In this document: piece by piece, positions 5,331 to 23,599 of the stretch
How the letters are laid out: every line of letters begins with the position of its first letter
Numbering within the stretch: position 1 is the first letter of the stretch
NCBI GenBank assembly: GCA_946410085.1
Contig: CAMJZA010000004.1
Coordinates: forward strand, 1-64,000
Direction of reading: 5' to 3'
DNA length: 64,000 nucleotides
Source of the DNA: an uncultured Treponema sp.
GTDB lineage: Bacteria; Spirochaetota; Spirochaetia; Treponematales; Treponemataceae
Notes under the pieces: generated by a model
The model's database searches: none
Told to the model about the DNA's origin: nothing
The model's input: only the letters and a program-made list of their open reading frames with translations
Position numbers and translations under genes: made by a program

Positions 5331-7081
5331 ACAGTCAGGACAGCAAACGGCAGCGCAACAACAGAAAGCTCTTTCTCGGAGTCTTCCTCCCCCTCCTTGC
5401 GGTAACCTTCGTCGCCTGTACGGCTTTTGCCGTGCTTGCCCTGCGGATTACGAACCGCTATGTTTCCGCAGAGACTGCCCGCATTACGGGGCAGCTTGCC
5501 GACAGCATTGAGATGAAGTTCGTTCCGGCCGTCACCAACGTCGAGGACTTTGCGGTGACGGCCGCATATACTGATGACGGAGAGATCCTGAACATGGTCA
5601 TCCACATGATGGGGACTTCCATTCCCTATGCGCGGGGCATTTACTACGGAACGGGAACTTCCCGGCGGAACGGGGGCGTGTTCTATGACAGCGCAAACTG
5701 GGTGCCGCCCGAGGACTGGGATCCCTCGCAGCGCGGCTGGTATAAGGAAGCCATTGCCTGCAGGGGCGGGATAGCCTATTCGGTTCCCTACGTGGACGCG
5801 GACACGGGCCGCCTGTGTGTGGGCATTTCCCGGCATATCGTCGGGCCTTCCGGGGCGGTTACCGGGGTTGTCAGCGTGGACATCCTGCTGAACAGGCTGA
5901 CAGCGCTGATTGACGAAACAACCCCTCCTTCGGCGGGGGGCCGCATCTACATCGTGAACAATGACGGCACCTATCTGACCAATCCCGATATGTCCAGGAT
6001 AATGACCGCCAACTACTTTGACGAGTCGCCCATTCCCGTCAAGGCGGGGGACTATCTGAAAGCGGACGGGTCGGCATTTCAGGACAAGAGCCGCTACTAT
6101 GCCGCCAGCAAGATAGGCGAATCCCCCTGGTATGTCGTTGTGGAAGGTCCGCTTGCCGACTTTACCGGCCGGATCAAGCGGATCGTCTATATCTTTGAGT
6201 TTGCCCTCGTCGTCTTCTGCATTGTCTGTTCGCTCCTGAACCTGCGGAACTTCAAGGCGATGCGCCGGGGCGAACGGGAGACCGGCGAGCAGATTCTTGC
6301 CGAAACGCAGAACCTTGCGGTTGCCGCAAGGCAGAATGCCGCAACGGGTCAGGAGCAGAGCGCATCCATAAAGGAAATCGTCGCGACGATGGAAGACAAT
6401 AACGCCCTTGCGGAGAACATTTCGGTCAAGATACAGGACGTGGCCGGTGTCGCGGAAAAGACGAGCGGGGACGTTGCGGACGGGGTGAGTCACCTGGAGA
6501 AGAACGTTGCCCAGCTGCACGAGATTGCTGCCGCCAATCAGGATACGATAGACGGCATCAAGGTCCTGGGCGACAGGATAAACAACATCTGGGACATCGT
6601 GACCCTCATCAACTCGGTCGCAGACCAGGCGAAGATCATCGCCTTCAATGCGGAACTTGAGGCGTCGAGTGCAGGCGAGGCGGGCAAGAGCTTCCACATC
6701 GTCGCGACGGAAATCCGTCGCCTTGCCGACGGCATCATCGACGGCACGAAAGAGATCAAGGAGAAGATAAACGAGATCCAGCAGTCGTCCGACCGGCTCA
6801 TCATTGCGAGCGAGAGCGGGACGGAAAAGATACGCGAGGGCGTGGAGAACGCCAATGCCCTGGCGGAACGTTTCTTGAGCATACGGCATTCCTCGGAGAT
6901 GACGGCGGGCAGCGCGGGTGACATTACGTCGATCATCCGCCAGCAGGCGGCCTCGAGCGAGCAGATTCTTGCGACCCTCAGGCAGTTGGCGGCGGGCGTG
7001 GAAAGTTTTACCTCCGCGACGGAAGGCATCTCTGCTGCCTCGGAGAAGCTCAAGGACATAGCGGGACGGTTTGAAGGCTAG
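5327..7081 (+). CDS. Methyl-accepting chemotaxis protein, dCache, HAMP-less, atypical tip
   Basis: TM-dCache (WDPSQRGWYKEA)-TM-MCP domain (ADQAKIIAFNAELEASSAGEAGKSFHIVATEIRRL); start overlaps upstream stop. Confidence 0.9.
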   Translation: MNSQDSKRQRNNRKLFLGVFLPLLAVTFVACTAFAVLALRITNRYVSAETARITGQLADSIEMKFVPAVTNVEDFAVTAAYTDDGEILNMVIHMMGTSIPYARGIYYGTGTSRRNGGVFYDSANWVPPEDWDPSQRGWYKEAIACRGGIAYSVPYVDADTGRLCVGISRHIVGPSGAVTGVVSVDILLNRLTALIDETTPPSAGGRIYIVNNDGTYLTNPDMSRIMTANYFDESPIPVKAGDYLKADGSAFQDKSRYYAASKIGESPWYVVVEGPLADFTGRIKRIVYIFEFALVVFCIVCSLLNLRNFKAMRRGERETGEQILAETQNLAVAARQNAATGQEQSASIKEIVATMEDNNALAENISVKIQDVAGVAEKTSGDVADGVSHLEKNVAQLHEIAAANQDTIDGIKVLGDRINNIWDIVTLINSVADQAKIIAFNAELEASSAGEAGKSFHIVATEIRRLADGIIDGTKEIKEKINEIQQSSDRLIIASESGTEKIREGVENANALAERFLSIRHSSEMTAGSAGDITSIIRQQAASSEQILATLRQLAAGVESFTSATEGISAASEKLKDIAGRFEG

Positions 7082-7141: not shown

Positions 7142-8914
7142 ATGAAGTTTACGGGTATGAAGGGTGTTTTTGGGAGAACGGACACGAGGAATGACTCAAA
7201 GATGCTCCGCCGGATTACGGCGATTATTGTCGGATCAATGACGTTCGGCATGCTGAGCGTCGTTACGCTGTCCATCATCGTGTTCAGCATCTGTTACATG
7301 CGGAACACGCAGAATTTGATCGTCCATACGGCCAATGGGGCGATGGGCATCATGAACGACTGGGCCCTGACGCTCAAGAGCCTGACTTCTTCCGCCGCCG
7401 TCCGCCCCGACCTGGTGCAGGCCGTGCGCGAGGGGGACCGGACGCAGCTGGAGGAGATCATATCATCCTTTTCGGATTCCTCCGATGTGGAACTCTTTGC
7501 ATTTACGGACCGGAACGGAGTCGTCCTGCCGGGCGGAGGCTACAGCATCGATGCAGGTACGGACATCCGGGAGCATACGGGTGTGGCGGACGCGCTGGCG
7601 GGCCGCGAGGGGCTGACCTATGAGCCGCTGGGAGACATGGGCTATGCCGTGGCCTATTCCTTTCCTGTCCGCGATTCCGACGGCAGCCTGCTGGGGGCGG
7701 CGGTTTCTGCCTATGACCTGACGACCGGTTCCTTCGTGGAGCTCATGAAAGACGGCTTTGACGTGGAATGTACGGTGTTCCACGGCGGCGAACGCATGGA
7801 AACGACGCTTGCCGTGGGAGCCGGCAGCAGGCTGGACAATACGGCCATCCTGCATGAGGTGCTGGACGAGCATAATATCTTTGTCGGCCGGAACAGGGTT
7901 GACGGCATAGCCTACCTGTCCGTGTACGAGCCGCTCAAGTCGGACCGCGGGGATGTGACCGGCATGCTGTTCATTGCGAAGAATCTTTCCGAAGTGTACG
8001 GCATTTCAAACCGGGTAATCCTCTTTGTCGTTCCCTACACCCTGCTGATGGTCATCGTTTCCGGCCTCGTCATCTCGTTTGCGATGAACAGGATGAGCAG
8101 GCGCGAGCGTTCGGTGAGCGAATCGCTGTTTTCCGAGACTGAAAAGCTTGCTGCCTCCGCCAAGCAGAACGCAGCGACTGCCCAGGACCAGACAGCCTCG
8201 GTCAAGGAAATCGTTGCGACGATGGAAGACAACAACGAGCTTTCGGAGAATATATCCCAGAAGATCAAGGACGTGTCCGGCGTGGCGGAAAAGACGAGCG
8301 GGGACGTCTCCGAAGGAGTGTCCTATCTGGCGGCGAATGTCCGCCAGCTGCACGAGATTGCCGCCGCCAACCAGAACACGATAGACGGCATTAAGTCGCT
8401 CGGCGACAAGATAAGCAACATCTGGGACATCGTAACGCTGATCAACTCGGTCGCAGACCAGGCGAAAATCATCGCCTTCAATGCGGAACTTGAGGCGTCG
8501 AGCGCGGGTGAGGCGGGCAAGAACTTCCACATCGTTGCAACGGAAATCCGCCGCCTTGCCGACGGCATCATCGACGGTACGAAAGAGATCAAGGAGAAGA
8601 TAAACGAGATCCAGCAGTCGTCCGACCGGCTCATCATTGCGAGTGAGAGCGGGACGGAAAAGATAAATGAGGGCGTAGCGGGTGCAATGGGCCTGTCCGA
8701 GCGCTTCGAGCGCATCAAGAATGCCTCGGAGGTGACGGCGACGAGCGCGGGTGCCATAACGACGATTATCCAGCAGCAGGCCGCCTCGAGTGAGCAGATG
8801 CTGCAGACCCTCAGGCAGATAGCGGGCGGAGTGGAAAGCTTCAGCGTGGCGACCGAAGCAATTTCCGTTGCATCGCAGAAGCTGCAGCTCATTGCAGAGG
8901 AACTTGCAACATAA
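7142..8914 (+). CDS. Methyl-accepting chemotaxis protein, Cache-type sensor, atypical tip
   Basis: TM-periplasmic-TM-MCP; same hairpin as neighbours. Confidence 0.9.
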   Translation: MKFTGMKGVFGRTDTRNDSKMLRRITAIIVGSMTFGMLSVVTLSIIVFSICYMRNTQNLIVHTANGAMGIMNDWALTLKSLTSSAAVRPDLVQAVREGDRTQLEEIISSFSDSSDVELFAFTDRNGVVLPGGGYSIDAGTDIREHTGVADALAGREGLTYEPLGDMGYAVAYSFPVRDSDGSLLGAAVSAYDLTTGSFVELMKDGFDVECTVFHGGERMETTLAVGAGSRLDNTAILHEVLDEHNIFVGRNRVDGIAYLSVYEPLKSDRGDVTGMLFIAKNLSEVYGISNRVILFVVPYTLLMVIVSGLVISFAMNRMSRRERSVSESLFSETEKLAASAKQNAATAQDQTASVKEIVATMEDNNELSENISQKIKDVSGVAEKTSGDVSEGVSYLAANVRQLHEIAAANQNTIDGIKSLGDKISNIWDIVTLINSVADQAKIIAFNAELEASSAGEAGKNFHIVATEIRRLADGIIDGTKEIKEKINEIQQSSDRLIIASESGTEKINEGVAGAMGLSERFERIKNASEVTATSAGAITTIIQQQAASSEQMLQTLRQIAGGVESFSVATEAISVASQKLQLIAEELAT

Positions 8915-8926
8915 GCGGCCCGCTTT

Positions 8927-10735
8927 ATGTATGTGGGAAGAGGTGTGAATATGAGTAAAGGAGAAAAAACGGTACTGATGAGCAGGAGCATCATCGTGTC
9001 CGCCGGGCTGATGGTTGCCGCCGTCGTTGCGTGCGTGGTATTCATATCCGTGTCCGCACGGAGGAACTTTGTACGGTCCGCACAGGAGGAACTCGTCCAG
9101 ACACAGCACAGTATGTCGCTCAGCTTTGCGGTCAGCCTCAATGAGCAGAAGATCCTTGTCCTCCAGATGGCAAAGTCCAATACCATTGTGGCATACATGG
9201 AATCCCCTGATGACGTGGCCCTGAGTACCCTGGCCGTGAACGAGTTTGAGTCCTACCGGAGCTCCTTTCTGAGCAATTCGGTGTTCTGGACGTCGGACCA
9301 AAACCGCATTTTCTATACGGATGCCGAGCCGATGTATGTCGTTGATCCGGATAATCCCGATAATTACTGGTACAGGATGACCTTGGAGGGCAGGACACCC
9401 TACAACTTCAATATAAACTTCAACGAAGTACTCAACATAACAAACCTGTGGGTGAACGCCGTCGTCAAGAATGCAGCCGGTCAGTCGGTGGGCATGGTCG
9501 GTTCGGGGATCCCGCTTTCCAATTTCGTGGATACGATGTACTCCAAGCTGCCGGGGGACTGCAGGATGTTCCTGTACAACAACGAGCTTGAAACCACCGG
9601 TTCCCTTGACTTGAAGCATCTGGAACAGAAGAAGCCCATCACGGACCTGATTCCGGATTTCCGCGGCCGCGAGGAGCTTCTGAAGTCGGATGGCAATCAG
9701 ATGATGCTCATCGGCAATGTCATGTATTCCCTTGCTTCACTCGGGGAAATCGGCTGGCATATCATCCTGTTCAAGGAGTACAACTTTGACGAGTTCCGGA
9801 AGGGGGCCGTCCCGTCCTTTATGATAAGCGTTCTGGTCATCGTTCTGATTGCGGCGGGAATCTTCGTCTTCTTCCGCCTGCGGGCGGTCCGGGAGAAGGA
9901 GCTGGAGACGGCCGGAAAACTCCTGAGTGAGACCCAAAACCTTGCCGAGTCTGCCAGGGAGAATGCGGCAACTGCACAGGATCAGAGCGCGGCAGTCAAG
10001 GAGATCGTCGCGACGATGGAGGACAACAACGCCCTGTCGGAGTCCATTTCCCTGAAAATCAAGGACGTAGCCGGTGTGGCGGAAAAGACGAGCGGCGACG
10101 TTTCTGACGGTGTGAGCCACCTGGAGCTGAACGTCGCCCAGCTGCGGGAGATAGCAGAGGCGAACAAGACGACCATAAACGGCATCAAGGCGCTCGGTGA
10201 CAAGATAAACAACATCTGGGACATCGTAACCCTCATCAACTCGGTCGCAGATCAGGCCAAGATCATCGCCTTCAATGCGGAACTTGAGGCTTCGAGTGCG
10301 GGCGAGGCGGGCAAGAACTTCCATATAGTTGCAACGGAGATCCGCCGCCTGGCAGACGGCATCATCGACGGCACGAAGGAAATCAAGGAGAAGATAAACG
10401 AGATCCAGCAGTCGTCGGACAGCCTGATCCTCGCGAGCGAGAACGGGACCGTGAAGATCGAGGAGGGCTGCGATACGGCAAAAACCCTGAAGGAACGCTT
10501 TGACAGCATCAAGAATGCGTCGGAGGTGACGGCGGCAAGCTCCGGGGACATCACGACGATCATCCAGCAGCAGGCGGCAGCGACGGAGCAGATTTTGACC
10601 ACGCTCAAGCAGATAGCGGCGGGCGTGGAAAACTTCAGTTCCGCAACGGAGAGCATTTCGACGGCATCGCAGAACCTGAAGGCGATTGCGATGGAGATGA
10701 ACCGGCAGACTGTCCGGCAGGACGACGGACAGTAA
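8927..10735 (+). CDS. Methyl-accepting chemotaxis protein, dCache-like sensor, atypical tip
   Basis: TM-periplasmic-TM-MCP; same hairpin as neighbours. Confidence 0.9.
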   Translation: MYVGRGVNMSKGEKTVLMSRSIIVSAGLMVAAVVACVVFISVSARRNFVRSAQEELVQTQHSMSLSFAVSLNEQKILVLQMAKSNTIVAYMESPDDVALSTLAVNEFESYRSSFLSNSVFWTSDQNRIFYTDAEPMYVVDPDNPDNYWYRMTLEGRTPYNFNINFNEVLNITNLWVNAVVKNAAGQSVGMVGSGIPLSNFVDTMYSKLPGDCRMFLYNNELETTGSLDLKHLEQKKPITDLIPDFRGREELLKSDGNQMMLIGNVMYSLASLGEIGWHIILFKEYNFDEFRKGAVPSFMISVLVIVLIAAGIFVFFRLRAVREKELETAGKLLSETQNLAESARENAATAQDQSAAVKEIVATMEDNNALSESISLKIKDVAGVAEKTSGDVSDGVSHLELNVAQLREIAEANKTTINGIKALGDKINNIWDIVTLINSVADQAKIIAFNAELEASSAGEAGKNFHIVATEIRRLADGIIDGTKEIKEKINEIQQSSDSLILASENGTVKIEEGCDTAKTLKERFDSIKNASEVTAASSGDITTIIQQQAAATEQILTTLKQIAAGVENFSSATESISTASQNLKAIAMEMNRQTVRQDDGQ

Positions 10736-10826: not shown

Positions 10827-12611
10827 ATGAAGAAGAAATTTGTGCAGCTTTCCTTCAAGCAGTTTGTGGTCAGTGTCATACCGTATGCGGTCATTGCCCT
10901 GTATGTTTCCATCTCGTTTGCCTATCTGGTGAACGCATTGATCGAAAAGCAGGTGCACAATGACACGGTGGCACTGGCGAAGAGTGCGGAATACGAGGTT
11001 CGCCTCAGGTTTGAGACCCCGTCCATTGCGCTTAATTCCCTCGTCGGTGCCCTGGAAAAGGATTCGGGCCGTGACTACGATTCCGTCAAGGCGCTCGTTA
11101 CGAGCATGGGCGATCAGTATCCCCAGTGCTCGGCCTTTTATCTTGCGGCACTGGACGGCTTTGGTTCCAGGGACGGCACGGTAGTGATGAGCAACGGGGC
11201 GGACACGATTTCGGACAGGCAGCGGCTTGAGCAGTTCTTTGCAGCACCGATTGCTGCCAAGGGAGCGCTGTATTCCAGCGAATCGCAGGATACGGTTACC
11301 GGCAAGCCGGTCATCGCATTTACGCGGGCAGTCTACGACCAGGGAAGCCATAAGCTGATCGGCGTTGCGGGCTGCTACCTGCTGCTGGATCAGCTGGCTG
11401 CCGGTCTTGAGCCGCTGACGACCTCCGATCAGGAGCACATAAACGTCGTCGATCAGAACGGCGTGTTCCTGACCCATTCGGACGCCAGTTACGTAAAGAC
11501 CAAGAACTACTTTGATGTGTCTCCGCTCGGAAAGAAGTACAAGGCTTCCGAGTATCTTGACGGGACTGAGCGCGTTCTGAACGAGGGCGGCCACTACTAC
11601 GGGGTGCGTAAGCTCGGTGAGAGCCCCTGGTTCGTCATTATCGAAGGGCCGACCTCCATCTTTACGGGAAAATCGTATTTCTGGATGATCATCATCAACG
11701 CCGTTACCATCTTCCTGATCCTGCAGGCGATCGTCTATACTACCTGGTACATGAACCGGATGCGGGGCAAGGAGCGGGAGCTGGGCGACAAGATGTTTAC
11801 CGAAACCCAGAACCTTGCGGTTGCCGCCAAGGAGAACGCGGCGACGAGCCAGGACCAGTCTGCGGCGGTCAAGGAGATTGTCGCAACGATGGAAGACAAC
11901 AATGCCCTGTCGGAGAACATCGCGGTAAAGATAAAGGACGTGTCGTCCGTGGCGGGCAAGACCTCTTCCGACGTTGCCGACGGTGTGAGCCACCTGGAGC
12001 TGAACGTCGCTCAGCTGCGGGAGATAGCAGAGGCAAACAAGAACACGATAAGCGGCATCAAGAACCTGAGCGAGAAGATAGACAACATCTGGGACATCGT
12101 TACCCTCATCAACTCGGTCGCAGACCAGGCGAAGATCATCGCCTTCAACGCGGAGCTTGAGGCTTCGAGCGCAGGCGAGGCGGGCAAGAACTTCCACATT
12201 GTCGCGACGGAAATCCGCCGCCTGGCGGACGGCATCATCGACGGTACGAAGGAAATCAAGGAGAAGATAAACGAAATCCAGCAGTCTTCGGACAGCCTGA
12301 TCCTCGCAAGCGAGAACGGGACCGTGAAGATCGAGGAGGGCTGCGACACCGCCCGGAGCCTTGAGGAGCGTTTCGAGAGCATCAAGAATGCGTCGGAGGT
12401 GACGGCGGCGAGTGCGAGTGACATCACGACGATCATCCAGCAGCAGGCGGCGGCGAGCGAGCAGATCCTGATAACGCTCAAGCAGATAGCGGCGGGCGTG
12501 GAAAACTTTACGGCGGCAACGGAGAGCATCTCGTCGGCATCGCAGAACCTGAAGGCGATTGCGGTAGAGCTGAACGAGCAGACTGCCCAGCAGGGTGGCG
12601 GACAGGAATAG
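10827..12611 (+). CDS. Methyl-accepting chemotaxis protein, Cache-type sensor, atypical tip
   Basis: TM-periplasmic-TM-MCP; same hairpin as neighbours. Confidence 0.9.
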   Translation: MKKKFVQLSFKQFVVSVIPYAVIALYVSISFAYLVNALIEKQVHNDTVALAKSAEYEVRLRFETPSIALNSLVGALEKDSGRDYDSVKALVTSMGDQYPQCSAFYLAALDGFGSRDGTVVMSNGADTISDRQRLEQFFAAPIAAKGALYSSESQDTVTGKPVIAFTRAVYDQGSHKLIGVAGCYLLLDQLAAGLEPLTTSDQEHINVVDQNGVFLTHSDASYVKTKNYFDVSPLGKKYKASEYLDGTERVLNEGGHYYGVRKLGESPWFVIIEGPTSIFTGKSYFWMIIINAVTIFLILQAIVYTTWYMNRMRGKERELGDKMFTETQNLAVAAKENAATSQDQSAAVKEIVATMEDNNALSENIAVKIKDVSSVAGKTSSDVADGVSHLELNVAQLREIAEANKNTISGIKNLSEKIDNIWDIVTLINSVADQAKIIAFNAELEASSAGEAGKNFHIVATEIRRLADGIIDGTKEIKEKINEIQQSSDSLILASENGTVKIEEGCDTARSLEERFESIKNASEVTAASASDITTIIQQQAAASEQILITLKQIAAGVENFTAATESISSASQNLKAIAVELNEQTAQQGGGQE

Positions 12612-12620
12612 CGGGGCAGT

Positions 12621-13124
12621 ATGAACGAAGACCTGATAAACGTAATAAGCGAGAGTCAGAAGGCGAGCGAAGCCCAGGAAGTGGAAAAGAAGACCACCGT
12701 ATGGCTCATTTTCTCCATCGCGGGCAAGAAGTATGCCATGCGGTCGGCGGACGTGCTGGAGATAATCCGTGACGTGCCGATCTACAAGCTGCCCTTCATG
12801 CCCGCCTACATCGAGGGCGTGATAAACCGGCGCGGCGACCCCTTTACCGTCATCAATCCGCTGGCAGTGTTCGGGGATACGGATGCCAAGCCGCCGGAGG
12901 AACCGCTCTTCCTGATAATGAAGCGGGACGACGACCAGCTTTCCATCCACATCTCGGACATACTCCAGTTTACGGAAATGGCGGAATCCGACCTGAACCT
13001 CATTCCCAACGGAGGGGACGAGGACTTCTTCCTGGGCACGCTCAGCTACGGACATGAGGAAGTTCCCGCCATAAACCCCGGCTCGTTCGAGCTGCTCATA
13101 AGGAAAGACCTTGGAAGCGCGTAG
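12621..13124 (+). CDS. cheW: Chemotaxis adaptor CheW
   Basis: FSIAGKKYAMRSADVLEIIRDVPIYKLPFMPAYIEGVINRRGDPFTVINPLAVFG. Confidence 0.88.
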   Translation: MNEDLINVISESQKASEAQEVEKKTTVWLIFSIAGKKYAMRSADVLEIIRDVPIYKLPFMPAYIEGVINRRGDPFTVINPLAVFGDTDAKPPEEPLFLIMKRDDDQLSIHISDILQFTEMAESDLNLIPNGGDEDFFLGTLSYGHEEVPAINPGSFELLIRKDLGSA

Positions 13125-13617
13125 TCACTTTACCTGCATCGCATACAATACGGTAGACTTCCTCATTCAGAGCTGTTATGTGGTTTCGGGCATATACCTG
13201 CAGGTAGACAGGGGCGTGCGGAGCATCTCCTTTAACCAGGAAACCCTGCCCCACATCTACATCGGCGACCTTTTGACCAAGAGCTTCGGCTGCACTGCGA
13301 AGGACGCCTACAATGTCGTCCTCGTGATGAAGATGCAGGACTTCGTAAAGGATGTGAGCGCCAAGATAGTCGACTACACCAAGACGGCCTTTCCCGCGTC
13401 CGGGAACCTCGCCCTGTCCGTGGACGGTGCCATCAGCAGCAAGCTCCTTGACATGAGCGGCTTCCGGCTGTATCCGGGAAGCATCCGGGCCAGGCTGTGG
13501 GAATGCGGCATCTGCGCGATCGACTATTCCGACAAGGGGCGCAGGCGCATCCTGATTTCGCCCGACCTGCTGATGAAGAAATTCTTCTCCACCGGAATGC
13601 TCAAGGCGGCGGAGTAG
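13111..13617 (+). CDS. Putative divergent CheW-like adaptor (function uncertain)
   Basis: Overlaps cheW by 14 bp; faint CheW-like pattern (FTCIAYNTVDFLIQSCYVV...LPHIYIGDLLTKSFG...YNVVLVMKM) without the GVINxRG motif. Confidence 0.5.
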   Translation: MEARSHFTCIAYNTVDFLIQSCYVVSGIYLQVDRGVRSISFNQETLPHIYIGDLLTKSFGCTAKDAYNVVLVMKMQDFVKDVSAKIVDYTKTAFPASGNLALSVDGAISSKLLDMSGFRLYPGSIRARLWECGICAIDYSDKGRRRILISPDLLMKKFFSTGMLKAAE

Positions 13618-13627
13618 GGGGAAGCGG

Positions 13628-14656
13628 ATGAAGCTCATAATCGCCGACGATTCCGCGGTCGTCAGGGCAATACTGGACCAGAACCTCACCAAAACGGGCA
13701 GGATAGAAATCATCGCTTCCGTCTCCAACGGACGGCGGGCCATCGATGCCGCGAAAGGCGAATGGCCCGACGCAGTAGTCAGCGACATAGACATGCCGGA
13801 GATGGACGGGCTTGAGGCAACGAAGATTCTGTCCAAGTCCATGCACATACCGGTTATCCTCCTGTCGGAGGATCCTGCCAAGGCAGTTGCTGCCAGGGCA
13901 GCCGGGGCGGCTGAAGTCCTGACCAAGCCCCGGGTCAACGAGTATGACAAGGCCTTCTTTGACGAGCTCATGGAGCGGCTGGAAGCCGTCGTGTCTGCGT
14001 CTTCCCGTCCGGATCATACTGACCGGGGCAGCAGGGCCAAACCCTTCCGCGGCTACCGTGTCCTCTGCATCGGGGCTTCTACGGGCGGGCCGACCGCCGT
14101 CGCGGAGGTCCTGAAGGGCCTGGGGCGGGGCTTTCCCCTGCCGATCCTGTATGCCCAGCACGTTGAAGTCGGTGCGGACGGAAACCTTGCAGCCTGGCTG
14201 AACGGCAGCTGCGACAACCTGACGGTACGCCTTGCCCGGGACGGCGAGGAGGCCCTGCCCGGCACGGTCTACATGGCACCGGCGGACCGGCACCTGGTCG
14301 TCGACTTCGTGAAGGGCAATTCCCATCCGGTCCTGCGGATTTCCGATGAGCCGCCGGAGCGCTTCCTCCGGCCCGCCGTGAACATGCTCTTCCGGAGCGC
14401 AGCCCGGCTGTACGGCAAGTCCTGCCTCGCCGTGCTCCTGACGGGCATGGGGCGTGACGGTGCGGAAGGCTGCAAGCTTATCCGCGACGGCGGCGGCTGG
14501 ACGATCGTGGAAGACCAGTCCACCTGCGCCGTATTCGGCATGCCGGCGGCGGCCATAGAAGTCGGCGGCGCCTGCGAGGTGCATCCCCGGGGCGAGATTG
14601 CCGGAAGGATCCTGGACCTTGCGGGCGGATCCGGTACGAGGGGGGCTGCGGTATGA
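13628..14656 (+). CDS. cheB: Protein-glutamate methylesterase CheB
   Basis: Receiver (LIIADDSAVVR, VSDIDMPEMDGLEA) plus methylesterase (CIGASTGGPTAV, LLTGMGRDGAEG). Confidence 0.93.
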   Translation: MKLIIADDSAVVRAILDQNLTKTGRIEIIASVSNGRRAIDAAKGEWPDAVVSDIDMPEMDGLEATKILSKSMHIPVILLSEDPAKAVAARAAGAAEVLTKPRVNEYDKAFFDELMERLEAVVSASSRPDHTDRGSRAKPFRGYRVLCIGASTGGPTAVAEVLKGLGRGFPLPILYAQHVEVGADGNLAAWLNGSCDNLTVRLARDGEEALPGTVYMAPADRHLVVDFVKGNSHPVLRISDEPPERFLRPAVNMLFRSAARLYGKSCLAVLLTGMGRDGAEGCKLIRDGGGWTIVEDQSTCAVFGMPAAAIEVGGACEVHPRGEIAGRILDLAGGSGTRGAAV

Positions 14657-15498
14657 CGGTAAGCGACGAAAGCCTCCTTCTGATAATCGACCTCATCACG
14701 ATGACGACGGGCATCATCCCCCGTTCGAGCCACCGGGAAGGAATCCGCACCTACCTGTCCGGCAAGCTGGATGCGCTGGGCATTGCATCCGTAAAGGAAT
14801 ACGCAGACAAGGTCAGGACGGACAAGAGCCTCCTGATGGAGCTCATAAACGAAAGCACCGTCAACGAGACCTACTTCTTCCGGGAAGAGAAGCAGTTTGC
14901 GTTCGTGCGCTCCAAGGTCCTTCCCGCATGGCTTGCCCGGCACGGCAGCCAGCCGATCAAGATATGGAGTGCGGCGTGCTCCTACGGCGAGGAAGCCTAT
15001 TCCCTTGCCCTGCTGGCAAGAGACTGCGGGGTACGGGCGCACATAACGGCGAGCGACATAAACACGGCGGTACTGAGCCACTGTGCGGCGGGGGTGTTCA
15101 ACGCCTCCTCCATGCGGGTCGGGGATGGAGTATCGTTCCAGGAACTCCTGTATCCCTACCGGGCGCCCAATGCGAAGATAGCATTCAGCGATGAAATTCG
15201 CAGCTACATAACGACGCGGCAGATAAATCTTGCGGAGATGGACAATCCTGCATTCGAAGGTATCCTCCCCAAGATGCAGGATGTCGTGTTCATCAGGAAT
15301 GTGTTCATCTATTTCAGCCAGGAGCTGCGTGCCAGAATCCTCAAGGTGATTGCAGACAAGTGCATGGGTGAGGACAGCATCCTGTTCGTTTCCATGAGCG
15401 AGATTGCCCAGATAGACCAGAGCGTCATGCCCGCGTCGCTGGAGAAGGTCGCCGACGGCAACGTATTTTACTTTAAGAAGAAGAAGACGGAGGTTTAG
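14653..15498 (+). CDS. cheR: MCP methyltransferase CheR
   Basis: ESTVNETYFFREEKQF, WSAACSYGEEAYSLAL, VVFIRNVFIYFSQELRARIL. Confidence 0.93.
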   Translation: MTVSDESLLLIIDLITMTTGIIPRSSHREGIRTYLSGKLDALGIASVKEYADKVRTDKSLLMELINESTVNETYFFREEKQFAFVRSKVLPAWLARHGSQPIKIWSAACSYGEEAYSLALLARDCGVRAHITASDINTAVLSHCAAGVFNASSMRVGDGVSFQELLYPYRAPNAKIAFSDEIRSYITTRQINLAEMDNPAFEGILPKMQDVVFIRNVFIYFSQELRARILKVIADKCMGEDSILFVSMSEIAQIDQSVMPASLEKVADGNVFYFKKKKTEV

Positions 15499-15501
15499 GA
15501 G

Positions 15502-17607
15502 ATGGCGAAGGTTTCATCCGACATTACCGAAAGTTTCCTCTCCGAGGTTTCGGAACTGCTGGAGGAGGCGCGCAAGGACGTGCTTGCCCTCAAGGCGGAC
15601 CCCAAGGATAAGGACACGCTCTCAAGGCTGCTGCGCAACCTGCATACGATAAAGGGCAACTCCCGCATGCTCGGGCACTCGACGATAGAAAAGCTGTCCC
15701 ATGCCGTCGAGGACATATACAAGGGCGTCAAGGACGGGCAGGTAAAGAACAGCGACCGCCTGGTCCGCCTGGTCTTCTTTGTTGCCGACAAGATAGCCGA
15801 GTGTGCGGCTGCCGTCCGCAAGAAGGGCACCGACGAGATGAACGTTGACCTCTACCTCCAGTCCTGCGACAAGCTGGCGGCAGGTGAACTGGTGGACATA
15901 GACTCCATCGCCGAGCAGATCCGCCGGGAGAAAGAGGACAAGTTCCAGGGCGATGAGGACGAGGAGGATGAGGACGACCAGCAGATTTCCGACATCCAGT
16001 CCATCCGCATCAAGCTCAGCCGCATCAACGAGATAATCAGCTCCTTCGACACGATGATTACGCGGGAGTTCCGCCTCAAGCACCAGCTGGATCAGCTGCG
16101 GGTCATCGAGGAGGAAACCGACAACCACGAGCTTTCCAAGATACGCAAGCAGTTCGAGTCGGACATCTTTGCGCTGGAAACGTCGATATTCAGCGTGCAG
16201 AGCCAGGTTTTTGACCTGCGGATGCTGCCCATCGGCATTGTCCTGCGGCCCTTCGAGAACACGATAGCATTGGAGTCCATGCAGCTGGGCAAGGCTGTCC
16301 GGGCCAACATCCCCGAAACCGAGGTCGCAATCGACAAGGTTATCCTTGAACAGCTCAACGACATCCTCATGCATCTGGTCCGCAACGCCCTTGACCACGG
16401 CATAGAGACCCCGGAGGAGCGCCGGGCCGCCGGAAAGGACGAGCAGGGCGTCATCTCGATTACCTGCAAGCGGGAGACAAAGCACATCGAGCTGACCGTC
16501 AGCGATGACGGACGGGGAATCGACTTTGAGAAAATCCGTGCCAAGGCATCCCGCCTGTACGTGGAGCGGGCGGACGAAATAAAGGATATGGGCGAGAAGG
16601 AACTGTCCCAGTTCCTCTTCATGTCGGGCTTCTCCACAAAGGACAAGGTGACGGAGCTTTCCGGCCGCGGCGTCGGTCTTGACGTCGTGTGGACCAACGT
16701 GGAAAAGATAAAGGGCCGGGTCAGGCTCGAGAGCACCTTCGGCAAGGGGACGTCGTTTATCCTGCACTTCCCCCTCTCGCTTTCTACCCTGCAGGGCCTG
16801 TTCGTCATGTCCAATCAGGACAAGTTCCTCATCCCGTCCCAGCACATCGTGGACGTCATTTACCGCAAGAAGAGCGAGTACGTCACGCTCCAGAACCAGA
16901 CCTACATCAAGTTCGAGGGGCAGCTGGTTCCGGTCTTCTCCCTGTCCACCCTGTTCAAGGACCACAAGGGCGGATCCATCACGGATGCGGACTCCATCCT
17001 CATTGCCGAATACATGGAGCAGCGGATCGGCATCGTCGTTGAGCAGGTACAGCAGTACGTGTCGCTTGTCGTCAAGCCCCTGCCGCCTGCGTTCAAGAAC
17101 TTCACGATCCTGCAGGGCATCGTCTTTGACGAGCACTACGACATCGTTCCGATCCTGCACGTGCCGGAAATCCTCAAGAAGTTCAAGTCCCTGCGCGGCT
17201 ATGACATCAAGAAGTACGAGGCTGCCACCAAGCCGCGCACCGTCCGCGTCCTGGTCGTTGATGACTCCGATACGACCCGGCAGATTGAAAAGTCCATCCT
17301 TGAAGGCAGCGGCTTTTCCGTCGATACGGCGGTTGACGGCATAGACGGACTGGAGAAGCTCAAGGCGAAGCAGTACGACATCATCGTGACCGACAAGGAT
17401 ATGCCGCGCATGAACGGTCTGGTCCTGCTGGACAACCTGCGCCACATGGAAAAGTATGCGACGGTGCCGGTCATTGCCGTGTCCGCCGACCTGAACCCGA
17501 CGGTGGTTGATCAGTTCAAGAAATCCGGGGTGAGCGCGTTCATCGCCAAGGGCGACTTTAAGCGCGGCAACCTCATCAATGCGGTAAAGGAGTTGGTAAA
17601 TGAGTAA
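15502..17607 (+). CDS. cheA: Histidine kinase CheA with C-terminal receiver (CheA-REC hybrid), apparently no P2 domain
   Basis: HPt LHTIKGNSRMLG; catalytic LVRNALDHGIE, DDGRGID, SGRGVGLDVV; P5 CheW-like; C-term VLVVDDSDTTR...TDKDMPRMNG. Confidence 0.92.
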   Translation: MAKVSSDITESFLSEVSELLEEARKDVLALKADPKDKDTLSRLLRNLHTIKGNSRMLGHSTIEKLSHAVEDIYKGVKDGQVKNSDRLVRLVFFVADKIAECAAAVRKKGTDEMNVDLYLQSCDKLAAGELVDIDSIAEQIRREKEDKFQGDEDEEDEDDQQISDIQSIRIKLSRINEIISSFDTMITREFRLKHQLDQLRVIEEETDNHELSKIRKQFESDIFALETSIFSVQSQVFDLRMLPIGIVLRPFENTIALESMQLGKAVRANIPETEVAIDKVILEQLNDILMHLVRNALDHGIETPEERRAAGKDEQGVISITCKRETKHIELTVSDDGRGIDFEKIRAKASRLYVERADEIKDMGEKELSQFLFMSGFSTKDKVTELSGRGVGLDVVWTNVEKIKGRVRLESTFGKGTSFILHFPLSLSTLQGLFVMSNQDKFLIPSQHIVDVIYRKKSEYVTLQNQTYIKFEGQLVPVFSLSTLFKDHKGGSITDADSILIAEYMEQRIGIVVEQVQQYVSLVVKPLPPAFKNFTILQGIVFDEHYDIVPILHVPEILKKFKSLRGYDIKKYEAATKPRTVRVLVVDDSDTTRQIEKSILEGSGFSVDTAVDGIDGLEKLKAKQYDIIVTDKDMPRMNGLVLLDNLRHMEKYATVPVIAVSADLNPTVVDQFKKSGVSAFIAKGDFKRGNLINAVKELVNE

Positions 17608-19441
17608 GAAGATTCTTGTGCTTGAGACCTCCGTCACCCTCCAGAAGCTGTTTACGACGACGCTCGGCGACGAGCATAACGTGCAGTTTATCGGCGACGG
17701 CAAGGAGGCCCTGTACCGCCTCTTCGAGCTGTCCCCCGACCTCTTCCTGCTGAATGCGGAGTTCGAGGAGCCGCGCAGCTTTGACCTGGTGCGCGTGGTC
17801 CGTTCCATTCCCTGCTTCAAGGATCTGTCCATCGGCATGTATGCGACCGGTCCCTTCCCCTTCGATGAGGCGATGGCCAAGGGCTGCGGGGCGAACTCCT
17901 TTGTCCGCATTGACCAGAAGACGATGGCGCTGAACATAGAGGAGCTGGCGCAGATGCCTTCTTCCCGCCTGGACAAGCTGGAGCTGACCCAAGCCCGGAA
18001 GGATCTGGACGACGGCAGGCTCTTCCAGAACGCCCTGAGCCTGCTCAAGGACGGCTCGTTCAAGAACGTCGTGCTGGAAAAGATCATCGAGATGTCCAAC
18101 TCAATGGAGTCCGTCAATGCAATCGTGACGGACTTCCTCTCGCTCATCGTGTCCATCTGCGAGATTCCGGCGGCGGGCCTGTTCATCGTCGAAAACGACG
18201 GGCCGCACGGCTACTACGTGGCCGCGTCCGGCATGAGCGAGCGGGAACTGGGGGACTTCCTCAAGGTCTGCGCTGCGGACTTTGAGCAGGTAATGGGCGA
18301 CTACAATGTGTCCAAGCTGGTTCCGCAGAAGCTGGAGTGCCGCCAGAACATAGACGGCTTCTACTCCAAGGACGTGCAGCTGTCGGCCTATTCAAACGGC
18401 GAGCTGCGCTCGTTTGACGGCAAGGAATGCTTCGGCACGGTGCACATCGTTTCCGGCGGCAACTTTACCAAGGATAAGACCGACCTGTTCAACTACTGCA
18501 TCAAGGAGTCGGGCGTCCTCTTTGACAAGATGCTGATTGTCGAAAAGAAGATATTCTTTGAGCGGAGGATCCGCAAGGCGTTCAGCCGCTTTGTCCCGGA
18601 GCAGATTATCGACGAACTGGTAACCAACTCCGACGCAAGCCAGAAGGTGAGCGTGGGAGAAAAGCGGGCGGTCGCCATCCTCTTCTCCGACATCCGCTCC
18701 TTTACGAGCATCAGCGAGCTGAACCGGCCGGAAACGATGGTTTCCTTCCTGAACCGCTACTTCACCGCGATGGTGAACGTAATAAAGAAGCACGGCGGTA
18801 CGATCGACAAGTTCATCGGTGACGCAATCATGGCACTGTTTGGTGCGCCGGTCAGCTACGAGGACAACGCCCGCCGGGCCGCCGCGGCCGCCTGCGAGAT
18901 GCGCGAGGTGCTGCCGTCCGTGGAGCTGGGGGACCTGGTGCTGCCCGAAGGCATGAAGTTCAACATCGGTATCGGCATTCACTACGGTGACGTTACCGTC
19001 GGCTCGCTCGGTTCGGCGGACAAGACCGACTACACCTGTATCGGCGACACGGTCAACCTGGCCTCCCGTCTGGAAGGCCTGACCAAGGTCTACGGATCGA
19101 TGGTCCTCGTCAGTGAGAGCGTCAAGGACGACTGCCCCGAGGGCGAGTTCACCTTCCGCTATCTGGACGACGTGCGCGTCAAGGGTAAGGCGAAGGCGGT
19201 CCCGATTTTTGCGGTTGACCGCAGTCCCGACGAGTTCCCGCCTGCCTACAAGGACGCCTATACCAAGGGCATGGAGCTGTACAAGCAGGGCATCTGGAAT
19301 TTGGGCAAGGAGTACTTTGAGAAGGCGCTCGCCGCCGTGAACGGCGATAAGGCTGCCAAGCTCATGCTTTCCCGCTGCGAGGAGTTCATTGCCAATCCGC
19401 CCGACCACTGGGACGGTGCGATAGCCTTTACGACAAAATAG
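17600..19441 (+). CDS. Degenerate receiver + middle sensor-like region + class III adenylate cyclase
   Basis: ILFSDIRSFTSISE, DKFIGDAIMALFGAP, TCIGDTVNLASRLEGL; N-terminus looks like REC but with LLNAEF at the phospho-acceptor position; overlaps cheA by 8 bp. Confidence 0.88.
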   Translation: MSKKILVLETSVTLQKLFTTTLGDEHNVQFIGDGKEALYRLFELSPDLFLLNAEFEEPRSFDLVRVVRSIPCFKDLSIGMYATGPFPFDEAMAKGCGANSFVRIDQKTMALNIEELAQMPSSRLDKLELTQARKDLDDGRLFQNALSLLKDGSFKNVVLEKIIEMSNSMESVNAIVTDFLSLIVSICEIPAAGLFIVENDGPHGYYVAASGMSERELGDFLKVCAADFEQVMGDYNVSKLVPQKLECRQNIDGFYSKDVQLSAYSNGELRSFDGKECFGTVHIVSGGNFTKDKTDLFNYCIKESGVLFDKMLIVEKKIFFERRIRKAFSRFVPEQIIDELVTNSDASQKVSVGEKRAVAILFSDIRSFTSISELNRPETMVSFLNRYFTAMVNVIKKHGGTIDKFIGDAIMALFGAPVSYEDNARRAAAAACEMREVLPSVELGDLVLPEGMKFNIGIGIHYGDVTVGSLGSADKTDYTCIGDTVNLASRLEGLTKVYGSMVLVSESVKDDCPEGEFTFRYLDDVRVKGKAKAVPIFAVDRSPDEFPPAYKDAYTKGMELYKQGIWNLGKEYFEKALAAVNGDKAAKLMLSRCEEFIANPPDHWDGAIAFTTK

Positions 19442-19453
19442 GACAGGTAGTTT

Positions 19454-21412
19454 ATGAACGAATATTCGACTTCTGAACATCTGCGTCCGGTCGTGCGTGT
19501 TGATCCCGAAAAATGCTGCAACTGTCACCGCTGTATCAGCGTCTGCCCCGTCAAGATGTGCAACAACGGGGCGGGTGACCATGTGTCCGTCAACCATGAC
19601 CTCTGCATCGGCTGCGGTACCTGCATCGATGCCTGCGTGCACGGAGCGAGGACGGGCATTGACGATATGGACGCCTTCTTCTATGACCTCAAGTCCGGCA
19701 CCCCGATGGTTGCCATCGTCGCCCCTGCCGTTGCCGTCAACTTTAAGGGCCGGGACCTGGAGCTGAACGGCTGGCTCAAGTCCATCGGTGTGAGGGCGGT
19801 CTTTGACGTCGCTTTCGGGGCAGAGCTGACGACCAAGAGCTACGTCGAGCAGATAAAGAAAGAGAACCCGCCCCTCATGATTTCCCAGCCCTGCCCCGCC
19901 CTGGTCAGCTTTGTCGAAGTATACCAGCCCCAGCTCCTGAAGTACCTTGCCAAAGGTGACAGCCCCATGGCGCACATGGTCGAATGCATCCGCCACTTCT
20001 ACCCCGCCTACCGGGGCTGTAAGATTGCGGTCATCTCTCCCTGCTTCGCCAAGCGGCGCGAGTTCGACGAGAACGGCAGGGGCGACTACAACGTGACGAT
20101 GAAGAGCCTGAACGGCTACTTTACGGAGCACGGCATAGACCTGTCCACCTTCCCCAAGGTTCCCTACGAGAATCCCCTCGCCGAGCGGGCCGTCCTGTAT
20201 TCCACACCGGGCGGCCTCATGCGCACGGCAGAACGCTTTGTGCCGGGCATTTCCGCCCAGACCCGCAAGATAGAGGGGCAGCCCGCCGTGTTCGAGTACC
20301 TGGTCGGCCTGAACCGCTCGCTTTCATCCGGGGGAAAGCCCTATTACCGGCTCGTGGACTGCCTGAACTGCGAGAAGGGCTGTAACCGCGGCGGCGGTAC
20401 GACGAACCACAAGATGCCCCTTGACGAACTGGAGGAGCTGGTTGAACGGCGTGCCCGGGACCGGCAGGAGCAGTGGAATACCGCAGGTCCCCGGAAGAAC
20501 CGGCTGGCGCTCAGGAAGCTTGAGAAGACCGTGAATGCCTACTGGAAGCCCGGCATCTACGAGCGCAGCTACCATGACCGCAGTGCGGTGAGGCAGAAGT
20601 TCATCAAGACTCCGCCCCGGGAGAAGCTGCAGGAGATTTATGCCAGCATGGAAAAGTACTCCCGGGCCGACCTCTACGACTGCGGTGCCTGCGGCTACAA
20701 CGGCTGCGAGCAGATGGCGGTCGCCATATACAACGGCCTGAACCGGCGGGAGAACTGCCACCACTACGTCCTGCACCTTGCCAAACAGAACCACGAGAAG
20801 GAGATCCGCGAGGCCGTCAACGGCATTGCCGGCGCAATCCGGTCCGGCAGTGAGGCCCTGCGGAGCAATCTGCGTGACCTGCAGGAAATCAGGAATGCGA
20901 ATACGCTCACGATCGAAGGCATCAAGGACCTGAACAAGAAGATAAACGGCATCTGGGACATCGTGGGCATCATAAGCACCGTCGCCGACCAGACCAAGAT
21001 CATCGCCTTCAATGCCGAACTTGAAGCTGCCAGTTCCGGCGAGGCCGGCAAGAACTTCCACATCGTCGCGACGGAAATCCGCCGCCTGTCCGACAACATC
21101 ATCGACAGCATCAAGGAAATCAAGACGGTCATCGACGAAATACAGCATGCTTCCGACCGCCTTATCCTTGACAGCGAGAAGGGAACCCGGCAGATCGATG
21201 CGGGCCTTGAGAGTGCGAAGTCGCTTGAAGGGGGCTTTGAGGAACTCATGGCCGCTGCCCAGTCAGGCGCCGACAGCCCGGGTGACATCCAGAAGCGCGC
21301 AGGGCAGATAAGTTCTTCGGGTGAGCAGATTTTTTCCAACCTGCAGCAGATTGCGCAGGGCATCGAGAAATTTTCCCAGAATACGGCAGGTATTTCTTCC
21401 GTGAACGATTGA
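19454..21412 (+). CDS. Soluble [FeFe]-hydrogenase-like sensor fused to MCP signalling domain (atypical tip)
   Basis: 2x4Fe-4S ferredoxin (CCNCHRCISVCP, CIGCGTCIDAC), H-cluster motifs SQPCPA / SPCFAKRREF / DCLNCEKGCNRGGG, CGACGYNGCEQMAVAIYNGLNRRENC, then VADQTKIIAFNAELEAASSGEAGKNFHIVATEIRRL. Confidence 0.9.
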   Translation: MNEYSTSEHLRPVVRVDPEKCCNCHRCISVCPVKMCNNGAGDHVSVNHDLCIGCGTCIDACVHGARTGIDDMDAFFYDLKSGTPMVAIVAPAVAVNFKGRDLELNGWLKSIGVRAVFDVAFGAELTTKSYVEQIKKENPPLMISQPCPALVSFVEVYQPQLLKYLAKGDSPMAHMVECIRHFYPAYRGCKIAVISPCFAKRREFDENGRGDYNVTMKSLNGYFTEHGIDLSTFPKVPYENPLAERAVLYSTPGGLMRTAERFVPGISAQTRKIEGQPAVFEYLVGLNRSLSSGGKPYYRLVDCLNCEKGCNRGGGTTNHKMPLDELEELVERRARDRQEQWNTAGPRKNRLALRKLEKTVNAYWKPGIYERSYHDRSAVRQKFIKTPPREKLQEIYASMEKYSRADLYDCGACGYNGCEQMAVAIYNGLNRRENCHHYVLHLAKQNHEKEIREAVNGIAGAIRSGSEALRSNLRDLQEIRNANTLTIEGIKDLNKKINGIWDIVGIISTVADQTKIIAFNAELEAASSGEAGKNFHIVATEIRRLSDNIIDSIKEIKTVIDEIQHASDRLILDSEKGTRQIDAGLESAKSLEGGFEELMAAAQSGADSPGDIQKRAGQISSSGEQIFSNLQQIAQGIEKFSQNTAGISSVND

Positions 21413-21505: not shown

Positions 21506-23599
21506 ATGAACGAGTACTCCAATTCCGAACATCTCCGCCCGGTCGTGTACGTTGACCCGGAGAAATGCTGCAACTGTCACCGCTGCATCAGCGTGTGTCC
21601 CGTCAAGATGTGCAACAACGGATCGGGCAACCATGTGTCCGTGAACCACGACCTCTGCATCGGCTGCGGTACCTGCATCGACGCCTGCGTACACGGGGCA
21701 CGGACCGGCATTGACGACATGCAGGCTTTCTTTGATGACCTCAAGGCGGGTACGCCGATGGTTGCCATCGTTGCACCCGCCGTTGCCGTCAACTTTAAGG
21801 GCAGGGACCTGGAGCTGAACGGCTGGCTCAAGTCCATCGGCGTGAAGGCGGTCTTTGACGTGGCTTTCGGGGCGGAACTCACGACCAAGAGCTATGTCGA
21901 GCAGATAAAGAAAGAGAATCCGACGATCATGGTTTCCCAGCCCTGTCCGGCGCTCGTCAGCTTCATCGAAATATACCGGCCTCAGCTCATTGAACACCTT
22001 GCCAAGGGGGACAGCCCCATGGCGCATACGGTCGAATGCATCCGTCACTTCTACCCCGCCTACCGGGGCTGTAAGATTGCGGTCATATCCCCCTGTTTTG
22101 CCAAGCGGCGCGAGTTTGACGAGAACGGCCGCGGCGACTACAACGTAACGATGAAGAACCTGGACCTCTACTTCAAGGAGCAGGGTATAGACCTGTCTGC
22201 ATTCCCCAAGACGCCCTATGAAAACCCGCCCGCCGAGCGGGCCGTCCTGTACTCCACGCCGGGCGGCCTCATGCGGACTGCCGAGCGCTTTGTGCCGGGC
22301 ATTTCCGCCCAGACCCGCAAGATAGAAGGGCAGCCTGCCGTATTCGAGTACCTGTCCGGCCTTGACAGTTCGCTTTCGTCCGGGGTCAAGCCCTACTACC
22401 GGCTCGTGGACTGCCTGAACTGCGAGAAGGGCTGCAACAGGGGGGGCGGTACGACGAACAACAACATGCCCCTCGATGAACTGGAAGCACTCGTGGAAAG
22501 CAGGGCCCAGGCCCGGCAGGAACTGTGGAAGACGAGCGGCTACAAGAACAGCAAGGCTGCGCTCAAGAAGCTGGAAAAGACCGTGGACGCCTACTGGAAG
22601 CCCGGCATCTATGAGCGCAAGTACCATGACCGAAGTGCAGCGATGAGGAAGTTCATCAAGACCCCGACCAAAGAGGAACTGCATGAGATTTTCCTCAGCA
22701 TGGAAAAGCGCTCCAAGACAGACCTCTACGACTGCGGGGCCTGCGGCTACACCGGCTGTGAGCAGATGGCCGTTGCCATCTTTAACGGACTGAACCGCCG
22801 GGAGAACTGCCACCACTACGTCCTGCACCTTGCCAACAAGGACCATGAGCGGAAGATCCGCGAAGCCGTCAACGGCATTACGAGCGAGAGCGTCAAGCTT
22901 CTGGAAGGCACCCGTGCCAGCGTGGAACGCCTGACCGGCGAAACCGGCAGGATGGCAAAGGATGTGGCGTCTTCCTCTTCCGCCATCGAGGAGATGGTCA
23001 GCAACATCACGTCCATAACCGCTATTGTTGACAAGAACTTTCAGATTGTCAACGAACTGGAAGAAGCGACCAAGGGCGGGCGGCTCAAGCTGTCCGAGGT
23101 GGACAAGCTTGTCGGTGCGATCGAAAAGGAATCCTCTTCCCTTATGGAAATGAGCGGTGCCATCCAGAAGATTGCAAGCCAGACGAACCTGCTTGCGATG
23201 AATGCCGCAATCGAAGCCGCCCACGCCGGAGAATTCGGTGCAGGCTTTTCCGTCGTTGCCGACGAAATCCGCAATCTGGCGGAAGATTCCGGCAGCGAGG
23301 CAAAGAAAATCAGCGAGGTCCTCAAGAGCATCAAGGGCATGGTGGACGGCGCCTACAGCAAGTCCAGCGAGGTGAGCCATGACTTTGAGAACGTCGTTAC
23401 CCTGATGGAGAACGTCAAGGAGCACGAGCTTGAGGTGAAGAGCTCCATGGCCGAGCAGAGCGAGGGCAACAAGCAGCTGCTCCACAGCCTTGCGCAGATG
23501 AAGGAAGGTACCCGTGCCGTCGAGGATGCGGCGGCAAAGCTCAGCAGCAACACGGACAGCGTCATACAGGCCGTGGAAAACATCGGCCAGGGCAACTAG
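21506..23599 (+). CDS. Soluble [FeFe]-hydrogenase-like sensor fused to MCP signalling domain (canonical tip)
   Basis: N-terminal ~450 aa closely matches the upstream paralogue; C-term ASQTNLLAMNAAIEAAHAGEFGAGFSVVADEIRNLAEDS; ATG at 21506 preceded by AGGTGA. Confidence 0.9.
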   Translation: MNEYSNSEHLRPVVYVDPEKCCNCHRCISVCPVKMCNNGSGNHVSVNHDLCIGCGTCIDACVHGARTGIDDMQAFFDDLKAGTPMVAIVAPAVAVNFKGRDLELNGWLKSIGVKAVFDVAFGAELTTKSYVEQIKKENPTIMVSQPCPALVSFIEIYRPQLIEHLAKGDSPMAHTVECIRHFYPAYRGCKIAVISPCFAKRREFDENGRGDYNVTMKNLDLYFKEQGIDLSAFPKTPYENPPAERAVLYSTPGGLMRTAERFVPGISAQTRKIEGQPAVFEYLSGLDSSLSSGVKPYYRLVDCLNCEKGCNRGGGTTNNNMPLDELEALVESRAQARQELWKTSGYKNSKAALKKLEKTVDAYWKPGIYERKYHDRSAAMRKFIKTPTKEELHEIFLSMEKRSKTDLYDCGACGYTGCEQMAVAIFNGLNRRENCHHYVLHLANKDHERKIREAVNGITSESVKLLEGTRASVERLTGETGRMAKDVASSSSAIEEMVSNITSITAIVDKNFQIVNELEEATKGGRLKLSEVDKLVGAIEKESSSLMEMSGAIQKIASQTNLLAMNAAIEAAHAGEFGAGFSVVADEIRNLAEDSGSEAKKISEVLKSIKGMVDGAYSKSSEVSHDFENVVTLMENVKEHELEVKSSMAEQSEGNKQLLHSLAQMKEGTRAVEDAAAKLSSNTDSVIQAVENIGQGN

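Follow-up and report, generated by a model that had tools for sequence, protein, structure and literature searches.

A pseudo-receiver adenylate cyclase encoded next to CheA, a candidate contact-controlled output of a Treponema chemosensory array

Main finding

A chemosensory operon from an uncultured Treponema sp. encodes, directly downstream of cheA, an adenylate cyclase (AC) with a degenerate response regulator receiver, and in one tier of its relatives the adjoining CheA has lost its kinase while the cyclase is retained. In the window, by which we mean the whole stretch of 64,000 nucleotides that was analysed, AC would be the output enzyme of the array, with its pseudo-receiver docking on the array and the state of the lattice gating the cyclase by contact, a reading to which we assign a probability of about 0.6.

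The cyclase gene and its operon

All genes described here lie on the forward (+) strand. Receptor (MCP) genes with array-specific tips were identified at 894–2453 and 5327–7081 (both by tip), 7142–8914 and 8927–10735 (open reading frame and tip) and 10827–12611 (dCache sensor; Pfam and tip), together with an adenosine deaminase-dCache-MCP fusion at 2466–5330 that also has the array-specific tip (Pfam A_deaminase, 245 bits). They are followed by cheW (12621–13124; Pfam), cheB (13628–14656; receiver with DD/D/K intact here by Pfam and residues), cheR (14653–15498; Pfam) and cheA (15502–17607). The window CheA has the order Hpt (H48), P3, HATPase, P5 and receiver (REC, DD/D/K intact), and its Hpt with His, HATPase and CheW-like P5 (Pfam, residues) identify it as a CheA proper. 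Between cheW and cheB a 168-residue frame (ORF168, 13111–13617), which is CheW-like by eye and has no Pfam match, is conserved in the window's tier of the family described below; its BLAST matches are confined to that tier and locus L069, and it is possibly a diverged second CheW.

The cyclase gene (17600–19441, 613 residues) begins within the end of cheA, as the initial annotation had proposed: its ATG at 17600 (ATGAGTAA) precedes the cheA stop codon, TAA at 17607, giving an 8-nt overlap, and a Shine-Dalgarno sequence, AAAGGAG, lies inside cheA (17586–17592), seven bases before the start codon. Pfam called only Guanylate_cyc in the window protein (96 bits, residues 354–533). An AlphaFold prediction whose input included 13 relatives placed a receiver fold first, then helices and a GAF-like domain, followed by a long helix that precedes the cyclase and, at the C-terminus, a TPR-like tail, with a mean pLDDT of 81 and a low pTM of 0.47, at which the arrangement of the domains is not reliable. 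We accordingly delimited a pseudo-receiver (residues 1–117; 17600–17950), a helical linker with the GAF-like domain (126–290; 17975–18469; AlphaFold, with weak Pfam GAF matches in 2 of 14 members), a putative long signalling helix into the cyclase (291–342; 18470–18625; predicted helices 291–329 and 334–342), the class III cyclase domain (354–540; 18659–19219) and the TPR-like helical tail (548–598; 19241–19393; AlphaFold, with weak TPR matches in relatives).

Pseudo-receiver and active site

The N-terminus of AC reads KILVLETS at the site of the CheY-like xxxxDDS and LLNAEF at the Asp site, so that the acidic pair is E9/T10 and the phospho-Asp position N52; there is also no conserved Lys. Pfam made no receiver call in the window protein. 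Residues 1–70 matched the MtrA receiver by phmmer (E 1e-4), Pfam Response_reg matched 9 of the 14 scanned family members, and in the AlphaFold model residues 1–117 form a complete (beta-alpha)5 fold. By fold and sequence homology AC therefore belongs with the response regulator receivers, and by acidic pair, phospho-Asp and Lys it does not. The Asp site is Asn in 39/42 cyclases of the window's tier and in 21/22 of the kinase-less tier; in the third tier it is Asp in just 7/28, and there the acidic pair is broken all the same. With a single locus (L072) set apart, all 91 Treponemataceae cyclases scored have a pseudo-receiver. These data bear out the initial annotation, which had called the N-terminus receiver-like and unlikely to be phosphorylated; judged by its residues, this receiver is unable to accept phosphate by the usual route. 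Misalignment as the source of the degenerate appearance was ruled out by the fold, the Pfam matches in relatives and canonical homologues with the expected residues at identical columns.

The cyclase domain, which matched CyaC, CyaB and OaPAC in sequence and fold comparisons with the PDB, contains the motifs LFSDIRSFT and KFIGDAIMALFG. Both metal-binding Asp residues, whose retention the same annotation had noted, proved invariant (D364 and D408, 92/92 cyclases from Treponema-like genomes), as did the adenine-specifying K404 and the transition-state residues N486 and R490 (92/92); the adenine-specifying position 479, T479 in the window, is T or S in all 92. Since the full catalytic set is kept, AC is predicted to be active with ATP as substrate.

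Linkage to cheA across the family

The first 347 residues of AC, used as query against 274 genomes from the window's family, matched a homologue in 135, and by identity these fall into three tiers: the window's (41–100%), a second (34–41%) and a third (about 20–27%). In 70/70 loci examined, the window included, cheA is followed immediately by the cyclase in the same orientation. When the search was instead started from CheA, this CheA type turned up in 131 genomes, and among the loci opened to find exceptions none had such a cheA without an adjoining cyclase; the candidate exceptions G165, G090, G073 and G265 were rejected on finding a diverged cyclase in each. In total the cyclase lies directly 3′ of cheA in more than 100 loci, which rules out chance or artefact as the origin of the gene and its features. 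The two genes overlap in 71/101 pairs, most commonly by 8 nt, and lie within 20 nt of each other in 95/101. This conservation supports the view that AC would be a dedicated output of its array. Named relatives comprised at least 13 Treponema loci, from Treponema MAGs of which several are of rumen or reticulum origin; no such cyclase was found among the non-Treponema matches listed in the named-genome scan.

Loss of the CheA kinase in relatives

The CheA proteins of the second tier are only about 500–570 residues long. In all 21 inspected the phospho-His is missing, as are about 178 of the 188 columns that the kinase domain (P4) occupies in the alignment, so that they do not qualify as CheA by HATPase and phospho-His, while P5 is kept in 21/21 and the receiver Asp in nearly all. 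In five of them Pfam found CheW-like and receiver domains and neither HATPase nor Hpt. The AlphaFold prediction for the kinase-less CheA retains P3-like helices, P5 and REC; the receivers of this tier carry a deletion in the alpha4 region. The cyclase is still the next gene. Judged by open-frame length, about 40 genomes carry a kinase-less CheA. For the closest pair (L063/L067) dN/dS was 0.050 in the kinase-less CheA and 0.041 in the adjoining cyclase, and other kinase-less pairs gave about 0.09–0.14 with dS nearly saturated: the kinase-less CheA is under strong purifying selection. Assembly error was ruled out for the group by its recurrence in 21 loci, of which three lie in named public contigs, and by the dN/dS of 0.05; the CheA frames of L018 and L058 look frameshifted or interrupted by stops, and no conclusion was drawn from these two by themselves. 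Genomes with only second-tier systems have one further CheA-type ATPase, a main CheA of about 800–850 residues (G246, with two, is the exception).

A separate case occurs within the window's own tier. In L069 (genome G271, 3733–5835) CheA is full length, with Arg in place of the phospho-His, no N-box Asn, Ala in place of the receiver Asp and no HATPase recognised by Pfam; the acidic pair of CheB is damaged, and the cyclase active site is intact. These substitutions indicate that kinase function is lost independently in this locus. As to CheB elsewhere, its receiver is intact in 19/20 kinase-less loci; its phospho-Asp is lost in 10/18 loci of the window's tier (e.g. L043), even though these loci have a complete CheA kinase.

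Ancestral state of the receiver

A profile search over 393 genomes of Spirochaetota clearly separated full-length matches (E < 1e-36) from receiver-only matches. From the former we sampled 16 full-length loci in other families, orders and classes of the phylum. In every one of the 16 the cyclase gene is immediately preceded by a cheA whose product retains its ATPase and receiver residues as well as the Hpt His. A canonical receiver, with acidic pair, Asp and also Lys, is present in 14/16 of these non-Treponemataceae cyclases; Pfam called both receiver and cyclase in 4/4 outgroup cyclases tested. In a cyclase tree built without the receiver (quick method, SH-aLRT support, midpoint root), the 91 Treponemataceae pseudo-receiver cyclases all fell on one side of a branch with 99% support, and L072, the one Treponemataceae locus with a canonical receiver, grouped with the outsiders. 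Given these canonical receivers and the split in the tree, the ancestral system was most likely an ordinary phosphorelay from CheA to a receiver-cyclase with cAMP output, comparable to Wsp apart from the messenger, and the phospho-site of the receiver would have been lost on the branch to Treponema with the catalytic residues retained.

Receptor tips and the two arrays of the cell

Besides the window's CheA-cyclase system, its genome carries a second one at G000:C2; the main CheA, of 825 residues, is encoded separately, beside a 502-residue CheW-domain protein at G000:C15. When the 28 receptors of this genome were sorted by tip, 15 carried the main-array tip QTNLLAMNAAIEAAHAGE, 7, all within the window, the tip Q[AT]KIIAFNAELEAS.[SA]GEAGKNFHIVA or a close variant, and 4, at the second cyclase locus, a tip related to that of the cyclase array. 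Receptor tips in the kinase-less loci are almost invariant (DQAKIIAFNAELEASSAGEAGKSFRIVANEIRRL). Downstream of the cyclase two receptors with a [FeFe]-hydrogenase-like sensor stand in tandem (Pfam, tip and comparison): HydMCP1 (19454–21412) has the tip of the cyclase array, and HydMCP2 (21506–23599), with a nearly identical sensor, that of the main (F2-like) array. Since the tips assign them to different arrays, one hydrogenase-like sensor seems to feed both. H2 or amino acids, under which the initial annotation had proposed to follow cAMP levels, may be inputs of the cyclase array, to which HydMCP1 belongs by its tip.

Candidate mechanism and alternatives

In the reading we favour, receptors with a private tip would form an array with CheW and CheA, CheB and CheR would adapt it, and the cyclase would convert its state to cAMP, to be read by the cNMP-binding proteins of the cell, which are present. 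We infer that the receiver fold was retained as a dock holding the cyclase on the CheA/CheW lattice, and that the conformation of the lattice would pass by contact through the GAF-like domain and the long helix to the cyclase dimer. The loss of the receiver phospho-site, together with loss of the kinase in relatives that keep the cyclase, makes contact control well supported, though short of proven, at the level of the family, and in the kinase-less relatives the array probably relies on protein contact, not phosphate, for its signal; the kinase-less relatives offer strong natural evidence that the state of the array may be read without phosphorylation by CheA. The initial annotation had suggested that AC docks on the array by protein contact and converts receptor state to cAMP. 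This proposal gains from the kinase-less relatives and the conserved linkage and is weakened by the window's own CheA, whose kinase and receiver are complete: with both intact, contact under phosphate control is possible in the window, where contact without phosphate would be one of two live options. The stricter version, in which receptors, CheW and a kinase-less CheA gate the cyclase with no phosphotransfer at all and the window is an intermediate stage, falls a little short of even odds in our judgement. Against a pure contact reading stand the intact CheA receiver Asp and CheB receiver of the kinase-less loci, where phosphorylation from elsewhere, for example by the main CheA, may matter; the cyclase could also answer a small ligand through its GAF-like domain instead.

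The most serious competitor, though an unlikely one, leaves contact as the last step and makes phosphate the carrier of the signal, the phosphorylated C-terminal receiver of CheA binding the pseudo-receiver and switching the cyclase, with another kinase supplying the phosphate in kinase-less loci. Such a switch would be in line with the pairing of one receiver with another, a well-established mode in two-component proteins, and with the intact DD/D/K of the CheA receiver, which is kept in the window and almost throughout the loci, complete kinase-less ones included; L069, however, keeps its cyclase without the CheA receiver Asp, the Hpt His or the N box, and the alpha4-region deletion of the kinase-less CheA receivers also tells against it. 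We think it rather improbable that the kinase-less CheA works in the manner of CheV, as a CheW-receiver scaffold that takes phosphate from the main flagellar CheA and thereby lets the cyclase array integrate signals of the main array. Its P3-P5-REC make-up with intact Asp, the intact CheB receiver and the main CheA being nearly always the sole CheA-type kinase left in those genomes are all as this would predict, but the idea fails to explain the window, where CheA brings a kinase of its own; the two arrays also differ clearly in their receptor tips, and L069 could not use such a route. Least credible to us is a cyclase that is constitutive, or governed by a ligand of its GAF-like domain, and tied to the array through shared expression only: the domain is indeed present, but linkage to cheA specifically is phylum-wide, the canonical ancestral receiver implies signalling from CheA, and array and cyclase were both retained after the kinase was lost.

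Relation to known systems

Wsp-type (ACF) systems (MCP, CheA-REC, CheR-TPR, CheB and WspR) likewise join a chemosensory array to a second-messenger cyclase output bearing a receiver, WspR being a receiver-diguanylate cyclase. By its content the window operon is ACF/Wsp-like, with a second-messenger output linked to CheA-REC and no motor CheY, and CheR is a CheR-TPR in the deep relative and the tier-3 locus scanned. Unlike Wsp, with its GGDEF output, the output here is a class III cyclase (cAMP), the receiver in Treponema is dead and the kinase is gone in some lineages. Earlier work had already pointed out chemosensory clusters with CheR-TPR that encode receiver-mononucleotidyl cyclase regulators (PMC3447774).

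In Pseudomonas aeruginosa, CyaB is not known to be encoded in the chemosensory operon or to have a receiver, and ChpA retains kinase and Hpt activity. The window cyclase, in contrast to CyaB, lies in the chemosensory operon and bears a receiver; what the two would share is chemosensory control of cAMP through an adenylate cyclase, possibly by contact, as Pil-Chp controls CyaB and raises cAMP, possibly via protein contact (FimL; PMC3019171). Treponema has been described with an F2 chemotaxis system, which has a CheW-CheR-like fusion (PMC7666581). The window operon has the organism type, MCP, CheW and CheA in common with F2, but it is not an F2-type operon: it has no CheW-CheR-like fusion, its CheA bears a C-terminal receiver, and the receptors with the main-array tip are not part of it.

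A 2023 survey of 13,673 CheA proteins, which may have selected for the domain, reported an ATPase domain in every one, with HATPase and phospho-His as core domains in all CheA surveyed, and described a non-functional kinase region in Rhodobacter sphaeroides CheA3 (PMC10782961). CheA3 retains a working phospho-His served by the kinase CheA4, whereas the kinase-less Treponema CheA has neither His nor ATPase and no bipartite partner was found; a bipartite arrangement was ruled out for genomes with only second-tier systems, where the sole CheA-type ATPase is the main CheA (G246 excepted). The kinase-less Treponema CheA contrasts with the survey in that the domain is absent while its place in a conserved array operon is kept under purifying selection. 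A search of the openly accessible literature found no description of a Treponema CheA-adenylate cyclase system or of a CheA without an ATPase domain. If the cyclase is gated by contact, the array would be an allosteric device independent of a histidine kinase.

The living relatives provide a stepwise evolutionary series from a phosphorelay to none. An ancestral CheA would have phosphorylated a receiver-GAF-cyclase, the phospho-site of that receiver would then have been lost in Treponema, and CheA kinase function would have been lost in one lineage and once more independently. Tandem duplication is suggested by G239:C4 and G050:C9, where the same genome carries a kinase-bearing CheA-cyclase system and a kinase-less one separated by about 15 kb.
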